Assembly: GCA_016190985.1 (NCBI GenBank)
Contig: JACPPI010000004.1
Coordinates: forward strand, 1-64,000
DNA from: Opitutia bacterium
GTDB taxonomy: Bacteria; Verrucomicrobiota; Verrucomicrobiia; Opitutales; Opitutaceae
Length of the DNA stretch: 64,000 nucleotides
Direction: 5' to 3'
The position numbers and the translations under genes were made by a program. This document shows, in pieces, positions 52,200 to 59,747 of this stretch; position 1 is the first letter of the stretch; every line of letters starts with the position of its first letter. The notes beneath the pieces were generated by a model. The model did no database searches and was not told the origin of the DNA. It saw only the letters and a list, made by a program, of their open reading frames with translations.

Positions 52200-53057
52200 A
52201 TGCGCTTCTTCAAATACCACGCCCTCGGCAACGACTACCTTGTGCTGAATCCCGCCGATTTCCCCGGCTGGACGCAGCCGACGGCCGAGCAGATCCGCGC
52301 CATCTGCCACCGCAATTTCGGGGCCGGCTCCGACGGCATCCTCTGGGGGCCGCTCCGCGCCAGCAAGGCGCAGTTCGGCCTGCGCATCTTCAACCCCGAC
52401 GGGTCCGAGGCGGAGAAGTCCGGCAACGGCCTGCGCATTTTCTCCCGCCACCTTTACGACCGGAAGCTCGCCACCGAAAAACCCTTCACCATCGAGACCC
52501 CCGGCGGTGTCGTGGAGTCGCGCGTCATGCAGCGCGGCCGGCTCATCACCGTCGACATGGGGCGGGTCACTTTCCAGAGCGACCAGATCCCCGTCGCCGG
52601 CCCGGTGCGCGAGGTGCTGAAGGAGAAATTCACCATTCAGGATCGCGAGTTCACCTATTGCGCCGCCGGCATCGGCAACCCGCATTGCGTGATGATCCTG
52701 CCGGAGGTTTCGCCCGGGCTGGCAAAGAAATACGGGCCGGACATCGAAGTGCATCCTAATTTTCCCAACCGCATCAACGTGCAGTTCCTGCGCGTCATTG
52801 ACCGGCAGAACGTGCGGATCGAGATCTGGGAGCGCGGCGCCGGCTACACCCTCGCCTCGGGCAGCAGTTCCAGCGCCTCGGCCGCCGTGGCCCACAAGCT
52901 CGGCCTGGTGGACGCCAAGCTCAGCGTGCACATGCCCGGCGGCCGGATCGGCATCGAGATCGCCCCCGACTTCGCCATCCGCATGACCGGACCCGTCACG
53001 CGTGTTGCCGAGGGCCGGCTGGACGCGGAACTGTTCTCCCATCCGTCGGTCACTTAG
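52200..53057 (+). CDS. diaminopimelate epimerase homologue lacking both catalytic cysteines
   Basis: 285 residues with the two-lobed DapF fold pattern: MRFFKYHALGNDYLVLN at the start, GSDGILWG, FNPDGSEAEKSGNGLR, AGIGNPHCVM and IWERGAGYTLASG. Ordinary DapF uses two cysteines, in GNGLRC and ETLACGTG. Here these positions are I80 (GNGLRIF) and S220 (TLASGSS). The only cysteines are C36, C154 and C163, none in those positions. Binding of a diaminopimelate-like ligand remains possible, but standard two-base epimerisation is not. It may be a different isomerase or a binding protein. The leader is TTTCCCCTCTTC. Confidence 0.82.
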   Translation: MRFFKYHALGNDYLVLNPADFPGWTQPTAEQIRAICHRNFGAGSDGILWGPLRASKAQFGLRIFNPDGSEAEKSGNGLRIFSRHLYDRKLATEKPFTIETPGGVVESRVMQRGRLITVDMGRVTFQSDQIPVAGPVREVLKEKFTIQDREFTYCAAGIGNPHCVMILPEVSPGLAKKYGPDIEVHPNFPNRINVQFLRVIDRQNVRIEIWERGAGYTLASGSSSSASAAVAHKLGLVDAKLSVHMPGGRIGIEIAPDFAIRMTGPVTRVAEGRLDAELFSHPSVT

Positions 53058-53135: not shown

Positions 53136-53741
53136 ATGCTCACCCGCCACCTCCTCCGCCTCGGCTTGTTGCTGGTCCTGCTGCCCCGGCCGGCGATCGC
53201 CACCATGGTGGATGCGCCGGACATCGACTCGCTCATCAGCCAGTCCGACTACATCGTGCGCGCCGTGGTCAAGGCGGCCACCCCCGAGTGGCGTGAACAC
53301 GCCGGTCGCCGCTACATCAGCACCAAGGTGGAACTGGAAATCCGCGAGGTCATCAAGGGCGCCCCGCCCGCCCGGCTGGTGCTGGACCTGATCGGGGGGC
53401 GCATCGGCGAGGAGGAGCTGGTCGTCGAGGGCCTGCCCCGCTTTGGTGTCGGCGACGATCAGATCCTCTTCGTCCACGGCGAGCAGCGGAAGATGTTTCC
53501 GCTGGTGGCCCTCATGCACGGCGTCTACCCCGTGTTTCGCGATGCCAAGACCGGCCAGGACTACGTCATGCGCAGCAACGGCCGGCCGCTCTACAGCGCG
53601 CAGGACGTATCCCTGCCCATGACCACGCCAACGGCGGCCCAGCAGCAGAATTCCGCCGCCCGCCCAATGACCGCCGCCACCTTTGCCCGGCAGATCCGGA
53701 ATCGCATCGCCGCGCAGTCCCCCGCCCAGCGTGAAAAATAA
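53136..53741 (+). CDS. exported protein of unknown function
   Basis: 201 residues with a signal peptide (LLRLGLLLVLLPRPAIA). The mature part is beta-rich: SQSDYIVRAVVKAATPEW, STKVELEIREVIKGAPPARLVL, GDDQILFVHGEQ. The C-terminal 40 residues are Ala/Gln/Pro-rich and probably disordered. No membrane anchor. The next gene, a putative metalloprotease, starts 11 bases before its stop, so the two are probably made together; this protein may be its inhibitor, chaperone or substrate. Confidence 0.7.
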   Translation: MLTRHLLRLGLLLVLLPRPAIATMVDAPDIDSLISQSDYIVRAVVKAATPEWREHAGRRYISTKVELEIREVIKGAPPARLVLDLIGGRIGEEELVVEGLPRFGVGDDQILFVHGEQRKMFPLVALMHGVYPVFRDAKTGQDYVMRSNGRPLYSAQDVSLPMTTPTAAQQQNSAARPMTAATFARQIRNRIAAQSPAQREK

Positions 53742-55158
53742 CCGCCAGCGGGTTCTCGTCGCCCTGCTCGCCGGCCTGCTGGCCGCCGCCACGGCGTGGG
53801 GCTTTGCCTATGTCACCAATTCTTCCACCGGCCTGCCGGTCAAATGGCCGTCGCCCGCCTATCCGCTGCGCATCATGCTCGGCACGAATCCCGGCGGCAC
53901 CATCGACTACGCCGCCGCCGCCCAGGCCGCCGCCCAGGATTGGAACGCCATCATCGGCGCCATCCAGTTCCAGGGCACCGTCGCGACCGGCACGGCGACT
54001 GACCGCAATCGCGTCAACGAACTGGTGTTTGCCGCGAACATTTTCGGGGAGGCCTTTGACACCAACACCCTCGCCGTCACCACCACCTGGCGCCTCGGCA
54101 ATGACCGGACCGAGGGCGACATCATCTTCAACTCCGCCCGCAATTGGGGCGCCTACAACGGCCCGACCCAGAGCGGTCTTGTCGACCTGAAGCGCGTGGC
54201 GCTCCACGAACTGGGGCACGCCCTCGGCCTGGATCACCCCGACGAGGCCGGACAGACCTTCAGCCCCCCGCTGCCGATCATGAACAGCCGGATCACCAGC
54301 AACGACACCCTGACCCCCGACGACGTCACCGCCGCGCAAAACCTCTACGGCCCCCCCGGCACGCCGCCCAACAACAATTTCGCCAACGCCACCGCGATCA
54401 CGCTCGCCAACAACGCCGCCACCGTCACCGGCTACAACACCAACGCCACCAAGGAACCCGGCGAGCCCAACCACGCCGACAACGCCGGCGGCCGCTCCGT
54501 GTGGTGGAAATGGACCGCGCCCTCCGCCGGCTCGGTCACGGCCGACACCCGCGGCAGTTATTCCGACACCACGCTCGGCGTCTACACCGGAAACTCCGTC
54601 AACGCGCTCACCACCATCGCGAGCAATGATGACATCAATCGCGGCATCGTGCAGGCCAGCACCGTGACGTTCAACGCAACCGGCGGCGTGACCTATTTCT
54701 TCGCCGTCGACGGTTTTGACGGCGATGTCTCCGGCCTCACCCTCAACCTGGCTTTCACCCAGGCCACCGGCACGCTGCCGACCATCACCGCGCAACCCGT
54801 CAGCGCCACCGTCACGGCCGGCGCCAGTGTCGTTTTCAGTGTCACCGCCACGGCCGGCGCCAGCCCCGTCACCTATCAATGGCAGTTCAACGGCGCCAAC
54901 CTGGTGGACGCCACCAGCTCGTCCCTCAGTCTGGTCGCCAGCAGCGCCAACGCGGGCACCTATGCCGTCATCGTCTCCACCACGGCCGGCTCGGTGTCCA
55001 GCAACACGGTCACCCTCACGGTCAACGCCGCGCCGCCCCCGCCCCCGCCCCCGCCTCCGCCCAGTTCCGGTGGCCGTGGCGGCGGCGGCGCGCCCAGCCT
55101 CTGGTTCTGGGGTGCCTTGAGCCTCCTCGGGCTGGCCCGCTTCCTCCGTCGCCGTTGA
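53731..55158 (+). CDS. matrixin-like metalloprotease with Ig-like domain and GlyGly-CTERM-type sorting tail
   Basis: 475 residues from a GTG at 53731. Signal segment LVALLAGLLAAATAWGFA. The zinc motif HELGHALGLDH (H159, H163, H169; HExxHxxGxxH) and Met-turn PIMNS (M184) identify a matrixin-type metzincin. Then a beta-rich domain (about 205-360) and an Ig-like domain (about 365-440: AGASVVFSVTATAGASPVTYQWQFNG). After a run of ten prolines comes SSGGRGGGGAP, one hydrophobic helix (LWFWGALSLLGLARF) and RRR. This tripartite tail is a GlyGly-CTERM-like sorting signal, and the next gene encodes a rhombosortase. Starts within the previous gene's last codons. Confidence 0.88.
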   Translation: MKNNRQRVLVALLAGLLAAATAWGFAYVTNSSTGLPVKWPSPAYPLRIMLGTNPGGTIDYAAAAQAAAQDWNAIIGAIQFQGTVATGTATDRNRVNELVFAANIFGEAFDTNTLAVTTTWRLGNDRTEGDIIFNSARNWGAYNGPTQSGLVDLKRVALHELGHALGLDHPDEAGQTFSPPLPIMNSRITSNDTLTPDDVTAAQNLYGPPGTPPNNNFANATAITLANNAATVTGYNTNATKEPGEPNHADNAGGRSVWWKWTAPSAGSVTADTRGSYSDTTLGVYTGNSVNALTTIASNDDINRGIVQASTVTFNATGGVTYFFAVDGFDGDVSGLTLNLAFTQATGTLPTITAQPVSATVTAGASVVFSVTATAGASPVTYQWQFNGANLVDATSSSLSLVASSANAGTYAVIVSTTAGSVSSNTVTLTVNAAPPPPPPPPPPSSGGRGGGGAPSLWFWGALSLLGLARFLRRR

Positions 55159-55163
55159 GCGCC

Positions 55164-55772
55164 ATGGAGCCGGCCTTGCCCACCGGGCGGCGGCACCGGC
55201 CTTGGATCTGCCTCGCCGCCGCCGCCGCCGCGCTCCTCATCCAGCTGAACCCGGCGTGGCGCGACGCCCTGCTCTACGACCGGGCCGCGCTGGCCCGGGG
55301 GGAAGTCTGGCGCGTGTGGACCGGCCACCTCGTCCACTTCGGCTGGCCGCATTTTGTCGCCGACACCGGCCTGCTGCTGATCCTGGGCTGGCTGCTGGCC
55401 GCGCGCCACGCGCGCTTCACCCGCCTCGCGCTAGCCTTCATGCCCGTGTTCATCGGCGCGGCGCTCTACTGGCTTGATCCGGCCATGCCGCGGTATGGCG
55501 GGCTCAGCGCCCTTGACCTCGGTTTGCTCGTCTATCTCGCCCTGCAGGGCTGGCAGCGCAACTGGGCCGACTGGTTCTGGCCCGCCGTGCTGGCGATCTA
55601 TGTCGGCGAGATCATTTTCGAAATCCACCAGGGCGGGCGCGGCGGCGGCATGATCCGGTTCGACGACCCGTCGATCCAAGTCGCGACCAGCGCTCATCTC
55701 GCCAGCGCCGCCTGCGCTCTGCTCTGCTGGCTGCCCGTCCGTTTCGGGCGGAAACAAGATCCTCCGCGGTGA
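55164..55772 (+). CDS. rrtA: rhombosortase (rhomboid-family C-terminal sorting protease)
   Basis: The ATG at 55164 gives 202 residues and about six membrane helices. Rhombosortase landmarks are visible: GHLVHFGWPHFVADTGLLL in helix 2, the catalytic Ser115 in YGGLSALDLG, and His178 in ATSAHLAS. Family members process proteins bearing a Gly-rich/helix/basic tail. Such a tail is encoded immediately upstream, five bases away, so enzyme and substrate are neighbours. Confidence 0.88.
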   Translation: MEPALPTGRRHRPWICLAAAAAALLIQLNPAWRDALLYDRAALARGEVWRVWTGHLVHFGWPHFVADTGLLLILGWLLAARHARFTRLALAFMPVFIGAALYWLDPAMPRYGGLSALDLGLLVYLALQGWQRNWADWFWPAVLAIYVGEIIFEIHQGGRGGGMIRFDDPSIQVATSAHLASAACALLCWLPVRFGRKQDPPR

Positions 55773-56640: not shown

Positions 56641-58134
56641 GTGACCGGATGGCTCGCAGATTCTTTCCGTTTTTGGTGGGCCCTGTTCTATTGGAACACC
56701 CGCAAGACCTGGTTCCGCCTCCAAGGCGCGCACCGGGATGACTGCCCCTGCCAGGTATCGAGCGATTCGGGCCATGCGCGCGATTCGCGGTGCGAGGCCT
56801 CGGTCAACTGGCGCCAGCCGGCGCGCTTCCGCCGGGTCTGCCCGTTGCTGACCGAAACTCCGCAGGGCTGGCGCTGCGGCGTGAATGCGGAGAGCGCCCG
56901 CCCCTTCTGGGGCCGCGCCGCCGGCTACGCGGCCGCGCTGGCCGTGGTCCTCTACCTGGGCGGCACCCTCGCGGTTTTTGCCTTCCTGAAGCTGGCGCAC
57001 TACGATGCCAGTTACCTGGCGGTGGCGTGGCCGCCGCGCTGGCGCGAACTGCGGCGTTCGCAGGAGACCCTCTACGCCGGCCGCGCGCAGCGGGCGCTGC
57101 AGACGGGCAACTATCAGGAGGCCATCCTCGCCCTCGACATGGTCACCCGGTTGAACCCGCGCAACTACCAGGCCGGGCTCGCCCTCGCGGGCCTGTGCCA
57201 GTCCGCCGCCCAGCCTTTCCTCGCGGACCGCGTTTATGAACGCCTGATGCGTGATGTGCCCGAGCAGCGCCGGCCGACCGCGCAGATCTGGTTCCGCGCG
57301 CTGCTGGCCCGCGGCGCTTATGGCAAAATCCAGGAGCTCGCGCTCGTCATGCTGACCGAGGACCCCGCCGAGCGCGCGGCCTGGCTCAATGCGCTGCTTT
57401 TCTCGAGCCGGCACAACCATGATCCTGTCTTCCTCGGCAAGGTCGCGGCGGAGCAGCCGCATCTGCCCGATTGGTGCACCGAGTTGATCGGCCTTGAACG
57501 GCTCCTCCTGCAAAACCAACTGGAGGCCGCCCTGCCCCGGCTCACCCGGGTCCACCGTTCGCCCGCCACCGCCTACATTCCCTATTATCAGGTCGACCGT
57601 TTGCTGCGCCATGGCCGGGCCGATCAGGCCAACCACCTCCTGCAGGCCTATCAGGGCCCATTGCCGCCGGATGAAGCCGCCTTCCTCCGGCTGCGCATTT
57701 ATCGCGCGAAGGAGTGGGCCTCGCTGGCGGACTCGGAGTTCGACGGCCTGCTCAACTACCAGCTGGCTCCGCGGCTGATCGCCCAGTTTTGCGCCTACCT
57801 GATCAGCAACCCGGATCGCGCGCTGTTTGCCCGCTATTACGAGCGGCTGGCCGCGGCGGGCTTCCCGGTCAATGCCGACACCTTGCACCTCCATCAGGCC
57901 ACCTACCTGGCCGCCGTGCTGGCGGGTGAGGCCGGTTCGGCGGAGAAAATCGCCGCGCGCATCAACCAATTCACCGCTTCGGAAGCCCGCGCGCTCCACG
58001 GCCTGGGCACGCTGCTCAAAAACCGGGCGGACAATCCGCGCCTCGGGCGCATCCTGCCCCTGGTGCCTTTGCCGACGGAAGCGGTCTACGCCATCCTGGA
58101 CCGCCAGCCGGCTGCGGCCGTCCCCGGCAAATGA
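56641..58134 (+). CDS. Cys-rich TPR membrane protein next to the exosortase
   Basis: 497 residues from a GTG at 56641, the only plausible start after the upstream spacer. The N-terminal 80 residues contain five cysteines in CPC, SRCEA, RVCPLL and WRCGV, suggesting a metal-binding module facing the cytosol. A membrane helix follows (GYAAALAVVLYLGGTLAVFAFL, about 90-115). The remainder is alpha-helical repeats of TPR character (RAQRALQTGNYQEAILALDMVTRLNP). The stop overlaps the exosortase start (ATGA), so it is co-translated with the enzyme, as PrsT-type TPR proteins sometimes are with exosortases. Function unknown. Confidence 0.78.
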   Translation: MTGWLADSFRFWWALFYWNTRKTWFRLQGAHRDDCPCQVSSDSGHARDSRCEASVNWRQPARFRRVCPLLTETPQGWRCGVNAESARPFWGRAAGYAAALAVVLYLGGTLAVFAFLKLAHYDASYLAVAWPPRWRELRRSQETLYAGRAQRALQTGNYQEAILALDMVTRLNPRNYQAGLALAGLCQSAAQPFLADRVYERLMRDVPEQRRPTAQIWFRALLARGAYGKIQELALVMLTEDPAERAAWLNALLFSSRHNHDPVFLGKVAAEQPHLPDWCTELIGLERLLLQNQLEAALPRLTRVHRSPATAYIPYYQVDRLLRHGRADQANHLLQAYQGPLPPDEAAFLRLRIYRAKEWASLADSEFDGLLNYQLAPRLIAQFCAYLISNPDRALFARYYERLAAAGFPVNADTLHLHQATYLAAVLAGEAGSAEKIAARINQFTASEARALHGLGTLLKNRADNPRLGRILPLVPLPTEAVYAILDRQPAAAVPGK

Positions 58135-59747
58135 CCGCTGCCGAACCCGCCCCCCCGCCCCGTTCCGGTCGTCCGCCGCCGGCCGCGATCGCCGTCGCGA
58201 TCACGCTGCTCGGCCTCGTGGCCGCCTTCTGTGGGTTGCTCTGGCCGGAATGGCGGCGGAATCCCGATTTGTCCCACGCTTTTTTTGTCCCGCTGCTTTT
58301 CCTGCTGTTGATCCGCGAAAGCCGCCGGCACGGCACACCGCGCTGGTTGCCGGCAGGCGGGCCCGGCACGCCGGCGGTCGCCGCGGCGCTGCTGGCCGGC
58401 TTTTTGTCGTTCGCGCTCGCGGGCCTCTTTGCCGCCACGCTGGCGTGGACCCACGCCGTGCCCTGCGTCCTGCTCGCGGCGTCCCTCGGCAGTTTTCTCC
58501 TCGCGGGGCTGCTCATCTTCGCGGATGCGGGCTGGCGGCTCGTGCCTTTCAATTGGATCAGCCTCACGGCGATCAGCCTCTGGCTCCTCGTCTCGCCGAT
58601 ACCCGACGGCACCTATGCCCGCCTGACGTTCAGCCTGCAGCACTGGGTGACAAGCAGCGTGCTCAACATCCTGCAGCTCCTCGGCGTGCCGGCCCGCCAG
58701 CACGGCAACATCATCGAGCTGGCCACCACCAGTGTCGGCGTCGAGGAAGCCTGCAGCGGCGTCCGCAGCCTCGTTTCCTGCACCTTCGCGGGAATCTTCT
58801 TTGCCGGATGGCTGGTGCGGCGGCCCCTCGGCCGGCTGGTGCTCATCGGCGCCGCGCCGCTGCTGGCCCTGGGGATGAACTTCCTGCGCTCCCTCACCCT
58901 CACACTGCTGGCCAACGCCGGCACCGACATCAGCGGCTTCTGGCACGACGCCACCGGCTTTGCCATCCTTGGTGTCACGGCGGCGGTGCTGGCCGGCCTG
59001 GCGATTCTGTTTGAGACGAAGGATTCCGCCCCGGCGGCGACACCCGCCGCCAGCCCGGCCCCGGCTTCGCCCCCGCGAACACCGTTGCGTTTGTTCTGGT
59101 CCGCGACGGCCGGCACGCTGGCCCTGGCCGTGTTTTTTGTGCTCAGCGCCCGCCCCGCCGCCCGGCCCGCGCAGCCGCCGCCGGACCTGGCCGCCCTGCT
59201 GCCGGCGACCGCCGCCCCATGGGATGCGGTCACACCGAAGGATCTCTATCGGTTCACCAGCATTCTCCAGACGACGCACCTGATGGAGCGAACCTATCTG
59301 CGGCTCACCGCCCCCGGGCAGGTGACCCAGTTCACGGTTTATGTGGCGTATTGGGCGCCCGGGCAGACCTCGGTCAGCCAGGTCGCCTCGCACACCCCCG
59401 ACGCATGCTGGCCGGGCTCGGGGTGGACCGTGCAGCCGGCGACCGGAAAACCCGCACCGCCCGCGCTGCCGGGTTTGACCATTTCCCGCGGGGAGCAGCG
59501 CTTGTTCAAAAACCCGGCCGGATTTCCCCAGCATGTCTGGTTCTGGCATATCAACGACGGCCGCGTGATCAACTACCAGGATCCCTATTCCTTGCCCGCG
59601 CTTTTCCAGATCGCCCTGCGCCATGGGTTCCGGCGCGCGGGCGAACAATACTTCGTCCGCATTTCCAGCAACCGGCCCTGGGCGGAATTGCAGGGCGAGC
59701 CCCTCGTGCGGGAAATCTTCGCCAACCTGACCCGTATCGGCCTCTGA
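58131..59747 (+). CDS. exosortase fused to an EpsI-like domain
   Basis: 538 residues. The N-terminal 300 form an eight-helix exosortase: nucleophile C208 in VEEACSGVRSL, R253 in MNFLRSLTL, H272 in FWHDATG, matching the family's Cys-Arg-His triad. A Pro/Ala-rich linker (about 290-310) and another helix (LFWSATAGTLALAVFFVLSA) lead to a periplasmic EpsI/DUF3485-type domain with VYVAYWAPGQTSVSQVASHTPDACWPGSGW. Exosortases cut PEP-CTERM-like tails and re-attach the protein. No PEP-CTERM protein is seen in this window, so its substrates are elsewhere. A 30-residue reading frame follows one base after the stop. Confidence 0.92.
   Translation: MTAAEPAPPPRSGRPPPAAIAVAITLLGLVAAFCGLLWPEWRRNPDLSHAFFVPLLFLLLIRESRRHGTPRWLPAGGPGTPAVAAALLAGFLSFALAGLFAATLAWTHAVPCVLLAASLGSFLLAGLLIFADAGWRLVPFNWISLTAISLWLLVSPIPDGTYARLTFSLQHWVTSSVLNILQLLGVPARQHGNIIELATTSVGVEEACSGVRSLVSCTFAGIFFAGWLVRRPLGRLVLIGAAPLLALGMNFLRSLTLTLLANAGTDISGFWHDATGFAILGVTAAVLAGLAILFETKDSAPAATPAASPAPASPPRTPLRLFWSATAGTLALAVFFVLSARPAARPAQPPPDLAALLPATAAPWDAVTPKDLYRFTSILQTTHLMERTYLRLTAPGQVTQFTVYVAYWAPGQTSVSQVASHTPDACWPGSGWTVQPATGKPAPPALPGLTISRGEQRLFKNPAGFPQHVWFWHINDGRVINYQDPYSLPALFQIALRHGFRRAGEQYFVRISSNRPWAELQGEPLVREIFANLTRIGL

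Follow-up and report, generated by a model that had tools for sequence, protein, structure and literature searches.

The three genes at 53136-55772 in the genome of an Opitutaceae bacterium raise the question of how a secreted bacterial metalloprotease may be kept inactive on its way out of the cell, and by what means it may be placed at the surface. We analysed them within a window of 64,000 nucleotides, which is the whole stretch of DNA under study, and favour, with fair confidence, a three-gene cassette that encodes a surface-sorted matrixin whose prodomain has been replaced by a separate TIMP-like inhibitor. The sorting part of this reading is well supported, and the inhibition is what we infer from predicted fold and gene context. 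The features on which the argument draws are the following:

53136-53741, + strand: TIMP-like (NTR/OB-fold) secreted protein of 201 aa, proposed matrixin inhibitor (from fold and gene context)
53136-53201, + strand: predicted signal peptide, residues 1-22 (..AIA then T), with mature N-terminus Thr23 (A-x-A rule)
53731-55158, + strand: matrixin (M10) metalloprotease of 475 aa, GTG start (Pfam Peptidase_M10 and sequence)
54205-54237, + strand: zinc-binding motif HELGHALGLDH (HExxHxxGxxH) in the matrixin reading frame
55066-55155, + strand: tripartite sorting tail SGGRGGGGAPS-LWFWGALSLLGLARFL-RRR (family alignment A1; one significant match in this genome)
55164-55772, + strand: rhombosortase (TIGR03902) of 202 aa, multi-helix membrane protein (NCBIfam score and AlphaFold)
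55506-55508, + strand: codon of catalytic Ser115 (invariant in 30 aligned sequences)
55695-55697, + strand: codon of catalytic His178 (AH motif kept in relatives that reach this position)

The initial annotation had described a matrixin and a rhombosortase separated by five bases, and this spacing is exact (55159-55163), with the matrixin frame ending at 55158 and the next ATG at 55164. It had placed the start of the feature at 53731, which has to be moved to 53136 since the gene 53136-53741 belongs to the cassette; thus it missed the TIMP-like partner immediately upstream, which together with the matrixin is conserved more widely than the rhombosortase, and it also missed that the genome has, at another site, one more rhombosortase with a target of its own. 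The start of the matrixin gene overlaps the end of the TIMP-like gene by 11 bases, and with the five-base gap before the rhombosortase gene this close packing makes translation of all three as a single operon probable. The order of TIMP-like gene, tailed matrixin and rhombosortase is kept in 24 of 37 independently fetched loci and is therefore not due to chance. Variations on this layout include seven loci (L064, L065, L066, L067, L044, L021 and L022) at which a clade-M and a clade-L rhombosortase follow the tailed matrixin directly in tandem, one of which (L044) carries two consecutive TIMP-like/matrixin pairs. Upstream, an open reading frame that resembles dapF by eye (diaminopimelate epimerase; 52200-53057, + strand) stops 78 bases short of the TIMP-like gene and may share a transcript with it.

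The identity of the two enzymes is clear from family models. The matrixin scores 51.2 bits against Pfam Peptidase_M10 (cut-off 24), and its zinc motif is the only HExxHxxGxxH in the window among open reading frames of 60 aa or more; further domains are weak, namely Ig_3 at 35.0 bits and a sub-threshold PPC. The 202-residue protein, initially called rhomboid-like and proposed to be a rhombosortase, reaches 102.5 bits against TIGR03902, above the equivalog cut-off of 84, as well as 44.1 bits against Pfam Rhomboid, and contains the motifs GHLVHFG, GGLSALD (Ser115) and ATSAHLA (His178) that had been read from it. Its AlphaFold model (pLDDT 86) finds GlpG in all of its top PDB matches (E 5e-5), so that a rhomboid fold with a Ser115/His178 dyad is predicted. 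Asp67 aligns to Asn154, the oxyanion residue of GlpG, and Leu119, at Ser+4, aligns to GlpG Tyr205. The typical Ser+4 His is thus absent from this rhombosortase, and hardly any rhombosortase of the Opitutaceae has it, whichever of the three clades it belongs to. A His at this position occurs in "virtually all" rhombosortases, where it is characteristic rather than defining (PMC3237569).

The C-terminal end of the matrixin reads ...SSGGRGGGGAPSLWFWGALSLLGLARFLRRR, in which a Pro-rich linker precedes the tail (SGGRGGGGAPSLWFWGALSLLGLARFLRRR). The three-part layout recognised in the initial annotation is present in full, with a Gly-rich motif lacking Cys, a hydrophobic helix and a C-terminal basic cluster, and the signal is conserved: in 26 aligned family tails GGGGAP, WF and one Arg (R25) are invariant, giving the consensus SGGGGGGGAPSxWF-helix-basic. 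Its assignment to the GlyGly-CTERM signals did not survive in strict form, as the matrixin tail does not reach the curated cut-off of TIGR03501, with no hit either for the protein or at this genome position. A search of this genome with TIGR03501 gave a single weak match, not the matrixin and located elsewhere (C5:182227, 11.6 bits), and only 7 of the 26 family tails gave weak matches. Judged by its sequence, the tail is a GlyGly-CTERM-like variant and not a member of TIGR03501. Two other sorting systems were considered and rejected, MYXO-CTERM (TIGR03901) since the tail scores 15.8 bits against a cut-off of 20 and its motif has no Cys, and PEP-CTERM/exosortase processing since the tail lacks Pro-Glu-Pro and tracks the rhombosortase, even though an exosortase lies 2.4 kb downstream. 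This exosortase (58131-59747, + strand) carries an EpsI-like domain at its C-terminus (in Pfam, 132 bits for Exosortase_EpsH and 43 bits for DUF3485), and its best NCBIfam model is XrtD, with a score far under the cut-off of that model.

Is the tail a target of the adjoining enzyme? In 27 of 37 loci with close relatives of the enzyme, the gene just upstream carries a GGGAP(S/G)xW(F) tail, and within this genome a profile built from the 26 tails finds the matrixin as its single significant match (E 1.5e-13), in agreement with what is predicted for a dedicated pair. The description as a dedicated pair, made in the initial annotation, holds for this genome and marks a local state only, because relatives have many copies of the tail: 37 of 120 genomes of the family are positive in the profile search, with 1 to 46 matches each. 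Where matches are numerous, Gly-rich repeats may account for some of them: in one tail-rich genome, G046, a strict pattern confirmed a clear C-terminal tail at 12 of the 18 places inspected. In a phylum-wide sample the tail was confined to Opitutaceae, where its motif GGGGGGAPSxWF marks out a group of rhombosortase targets that is uncatalogued and, in some genomes, large.

An alternative is that the tail does no more than anchor the protein in the membrane by its C-terminus and that the adjoining rhomboid is a housekeeping protease which does not act on it, a reading that could draw on the failure of the tail against TIGR03501 and on the missing Ser+4 His. We consider it very improbable, given that the enzyme exceeds the rhombosortase equivalog cut-off, that GGGGAPSxWF is kept across unrelated proteins (NHL-repeat proteins, for example) in a tail-rich genome, and that gain or loss of the tail goes with gain or loss of the enzyme clade. 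This last point rests on clade M, defined as rhombosortases with a score of 176 bits or more against the window protein and present in 37 of the 120 family genomes. Tail and clade M co-occur: 35 genomes have both, two the tail only, two the enzyme only and 81 neither (Fisher p 2e-25, relatedness ignored), and collapsing to genera leaves 14/1/1/33 (Fisher p 3e-10, relatedness likewise ignored). One of the two genomes with the tail only is a 68% complete assembly (G100), and the other rests on a weak match (G102, E 8e-4); three genera (g11, g16 and g45) hold both states and stay concordant for tail and enzyme. That the rhombosortase removes the tail of the matrixin is, on this evidence, highly probable.

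The tree sets clade M (100/99 support), whose unity is partly by construction because it was delimited by score, apart from a clade linked mostly to lipoproteins and from a third one, whose members lie next to a different tailed protein. In six loci (L007, L008, L012, L019, L023 and L028) the third-clade rhombosortase, with Ser at Ser+4, adjoins a protein that is conserved and has a tail of the GGGGGGALD type. On contig C10 (L002, G000:C10, 1456-2915, - strand), the second rhombosortase of the present genome (96 bits) overlaps the terminal part of a gene for a rhombotarget lipoprotein, which scores 297 bits against TIGR04179 (cut-off 150), and the genome thus contains a second dedicated pair of a rhombosortase and a known target lipoprotein.

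Gene neighbourhoods also bear on the fate of the matrixin. At locus L063 (60-5579) a pseudopilin/GspK/GspL/GspM cluster ends with the gene of the clade-M enzyme (32.9 bits for T2SSK_1st and 73.6 bits for T2SSF, with GspL and GspM scoring under their cut-offs), and elsewhere a rhombosortase of another clade follows GspL-GspM (L025) or a rhombosortase lies beside GspF (L057). At L057, the gene ahead of the rhombosortase encodes a DUF1501 protein whose tail reads GGGGGGVISLW. The position of rhombosortases in or beside type II secretion clusters agrees with VesB of Vibrio, which depends on the type II secretion system and whose tail is cleaved and replaced by an attached lipid (PMC6219818). In the present genome two secretins were found, both below the GspD cut-off, and no canonical GspK scored above its cut-off. 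VesB stays on the surface after removal of its tail (PMC6219818), as do the substrates of myxosortase (PMC11980579), and by this precedent we favour a matrixin that would be lipid-attached at the cell surface. Free release into the medium is the less probable outcome, for which one can cite VesC, released via self-cleavage in its linker (PMC13393428), together with the fact that the matrixin is itself a protease with a Pro-rich linker before its tail; the retention of VesB and of the myxosortase substrates speaks against it.

The question of how such a protease is kept in check leads to the first gene of the cassette. Because the zinc motif follows so closely after the stop of the TIMP-like gene, the matrixin has no space for a prodomain. 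The TIMP-like protein belongs to no Pfam or NCBIfam family, a search of 25 members against Pfam gave no TIMP match at E 10, and no TIMP was matched among PDB sequences, where the sole match, a spidroin at E 0.59, was dismissed; a plasmid collection held no relative of it. Its kinship is therefore visible in the fold only. An AlphaFold model built from the 25-sequence alignment (pLDDT 81.6) was compared by Foldseek with 350,542 PDB chains, and 21 of the 22 top matches were TIMP, NTR (PCOLCE) or agrin NtA structures, the other being an OB domain; the best were TIMP-1/2 (E 9.9e-4). TM-scores of the fold match are only about 0.35-0.55. The VIA list was made up of TIMPs, agrin NtA and complement C3/C4/C5 chains, the last aligned over their C345C (NTR) domains; N-TIMP-3 reached Z 8.4 (rmsd 3.1, 115 aligned). 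The model thus predicts an NTR/OB fold. As for sequence, these proteins would constitute a bacterial TIMP-like family that Pfam and NCBIfam do not recognise.

In TIMPs, the amino group of Cys1 coordinates the zinc, and the S1' pocket of the protease takes up residue 2, which is Thr or Ser. In the VIA register, several TIMP entries pair model residues 24/25 with TIMP residues 2/3, and Thr23, the predicted mature N-terminus, therefore takes the position of Cys1. Among 60 homologues, 56 have Ala just before the cleavage site (-1), 52 have Thr just after it (+1) and 54 have Thr or Ser at +2, while Val/Ile/Leu at +3 and Pro at +6 (Pro28) are common to all 60. The disulfides that TIMPs form with Cys1 and Cys3 have no counterpart, the residues being Thr23 and Val25, and cysteines are rare across the family. 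Since these cysteines and any sequence match are missing, we do not file the protein as a TIMP.

Beyond this genome, the TIMP-like gene lies directly before a matrixin on the same strand in 58 of 62 distinct copies (55/56 within the family), against a background of one zinc motif per 146 kb on both strands. The motif begins 455-584 bases past the TIMP-like stop in the 58 pairs, which leaves no room for a matrixin prodomain in any of them. Four TIMP-like copies have no downstream matrixin motif (L179, L180, L182 and L172), three of them outside the family. The pair also occurs in genomes without clade M, where the matrixin is tailless: by hand counts, the TIMP-like-linked matrixin bears the tail in 12 of 13 cases in clade-M genomes and in 0 of 24 elsewhere (p 7e-9). 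As far as sequences tell, the TIMP-like/matrixin pair is thus older or wider than the link to the rhombosortase, and the tail looks like an appendage acquired along with its enzyme by a pair already in place. The same matrixin, tailed and tailless in nature, provides a clean contrast for the function of the tail. Tailless TIMP-like-linked matrixins are also seen in clade-M genomes at L056 (and L026), L069 and L185, which may reflect recent loss or other targets of the enzyme.

That the TIMP-like protein inhibits the matrixin, by whatever route, is in our view the most likely reading, at somewhat better than even odds. Its main rival holds that only the rhombosortase/target pair forms a functional unit and that the TIMP-like protein is a chaperone, an activator or a substrate which the matrixin cuts and releases. 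The Listeria metzincin Mtz indeed cleaves and releases its TIMP-like partner Tim (PMC8235301), and NTR folds serve varied roles, with complement C345C domains ranking level with N-TIMP-3 in the VIA list. Such folds also occur in proteins that are not inhibitors of proteases, including complement C345C and agrin. Against this stand a free N-terminus predicted at the exact position of TIMP Cys1, with Thr/Ser at position 2, conserved across 60 homologues and needless for a generic chaperone, and the absence of prodomain space in all 58 pairs; we therefore regard the rival as less likely.

Under the preferred reading, inhibition by the TIMP-like protein, the following sequence of events can be proposed. 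Sec would carry both secreted proteins to the periplasm, where the C-terminal helix and RRR would hold the matrixin in the inner membrane and signal peptidase would free the TIMP-like N-terminus Thr23-(Met/Thr/Ser)24-Val25. The Thr23 wedge, placed like Cys1-Thr2-Cys3 of TIMP, would then chelate the catalytic zinc, and the prodomain-less matrixin would be silent until outside the cell. The rhombosortase would cut the matrixin near the Gly-rich motif, the new C-terminus may be joined to a phosphoethanolamine lipid as for VesB of Vibrio, and a type II secretion-like system would move the protein to the cell surface. This complete TIMP mechanism, in which a free N-terminus on the catalytic zinc silences the paired matrixin and the tail adds surface placement in the rhombosortase lineage, we put forward tentatively, at a little short of even confidence.

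Parts of the cassette have clear precedents. Haft and Varghese (2011) reported that genomes with a single target tend to have rhombosortase and target as neighbours, and they listed Opitutus terrae PB90-1 with such an adjacent pair, so that a dedicated rhombosortase pair in Opitutaceae was already known; Cupriavidus metallidurans has two rhombosortases that each adjoin their own target, like the genome described here (PMC3237569). With the GlyGly-CTERM/rhombosortase system (PMC3237569), including VesB/RssP of Vibrio cholerae (PMC6219818), the cassette shares a rhomboid-family enzyme, a tripartite Gly-rich tail and adjacency for a single target. It differs in the tail (GGGGGGAPSxWF, missed by TIGR03501), in Leu instead of His at Ser+4, in Asp67 at the position of GlpG Asn154, and in tail matches per genome, up to 46 in Opitutaceae relatives compared with at most 13 in the earlier survey (PMC3237569). 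The rhombosortase/tail part is accordingly a known system in a divergent form specific to this lineage; what goes beyond the 2011 core is the tail variant, the TIMP-like partner and, in some relatives, the placement of the rhombosortase gene within an operon for type II secretion. The TIGR04179 rhombotarget/rhombosortase pair, present in the same genome on C10, is likewise a dedicated enzyme/target pair with a variant tail, but with a clade-L rhombosortase, another target and another tail. Myxosortase/MYXO-CTERM (the metalloproteases MXAN_2677/2678, NF041905) resembles the cassette in a surface-sorted matrixin-like protease and a tripartite tail with weak model similarity, whereas its tail has an invariant Cys and its enzyme is not related to rhomboids.

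The new element is the TIMP-like part. In the open-licence literature, the only bacterial TIMP homologue that we found is that of Listeria. The Listeria Mtz-Tim pair likewise joins a bacterial metzincin to a TIMP-like protein, but it is Gram-positive, phage-derived and without a sorting tail, and Tim is a lipoprotein, recognised by Phyre2 only, that Mtz cleaves (PMC8235301). With the animal TIMP/MMP system, the cassette would share, as far as the model goes, the NTR/OB fold, a predicted free N-terminus placed where TIMPs chelate the zinc, a Thr/Ser as second residue and a matrixin partner; it differs from animal TIMPs in lacking the conserved cysteines, in Thr at position 1 and in an undetectable sequence similarity. 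If the inhibitor reading is true, bacteria own a dedicated, genomically linked counterpart of MMP/TIMP, and the age and origin of this control mechanism become testable by simple biochemistry.
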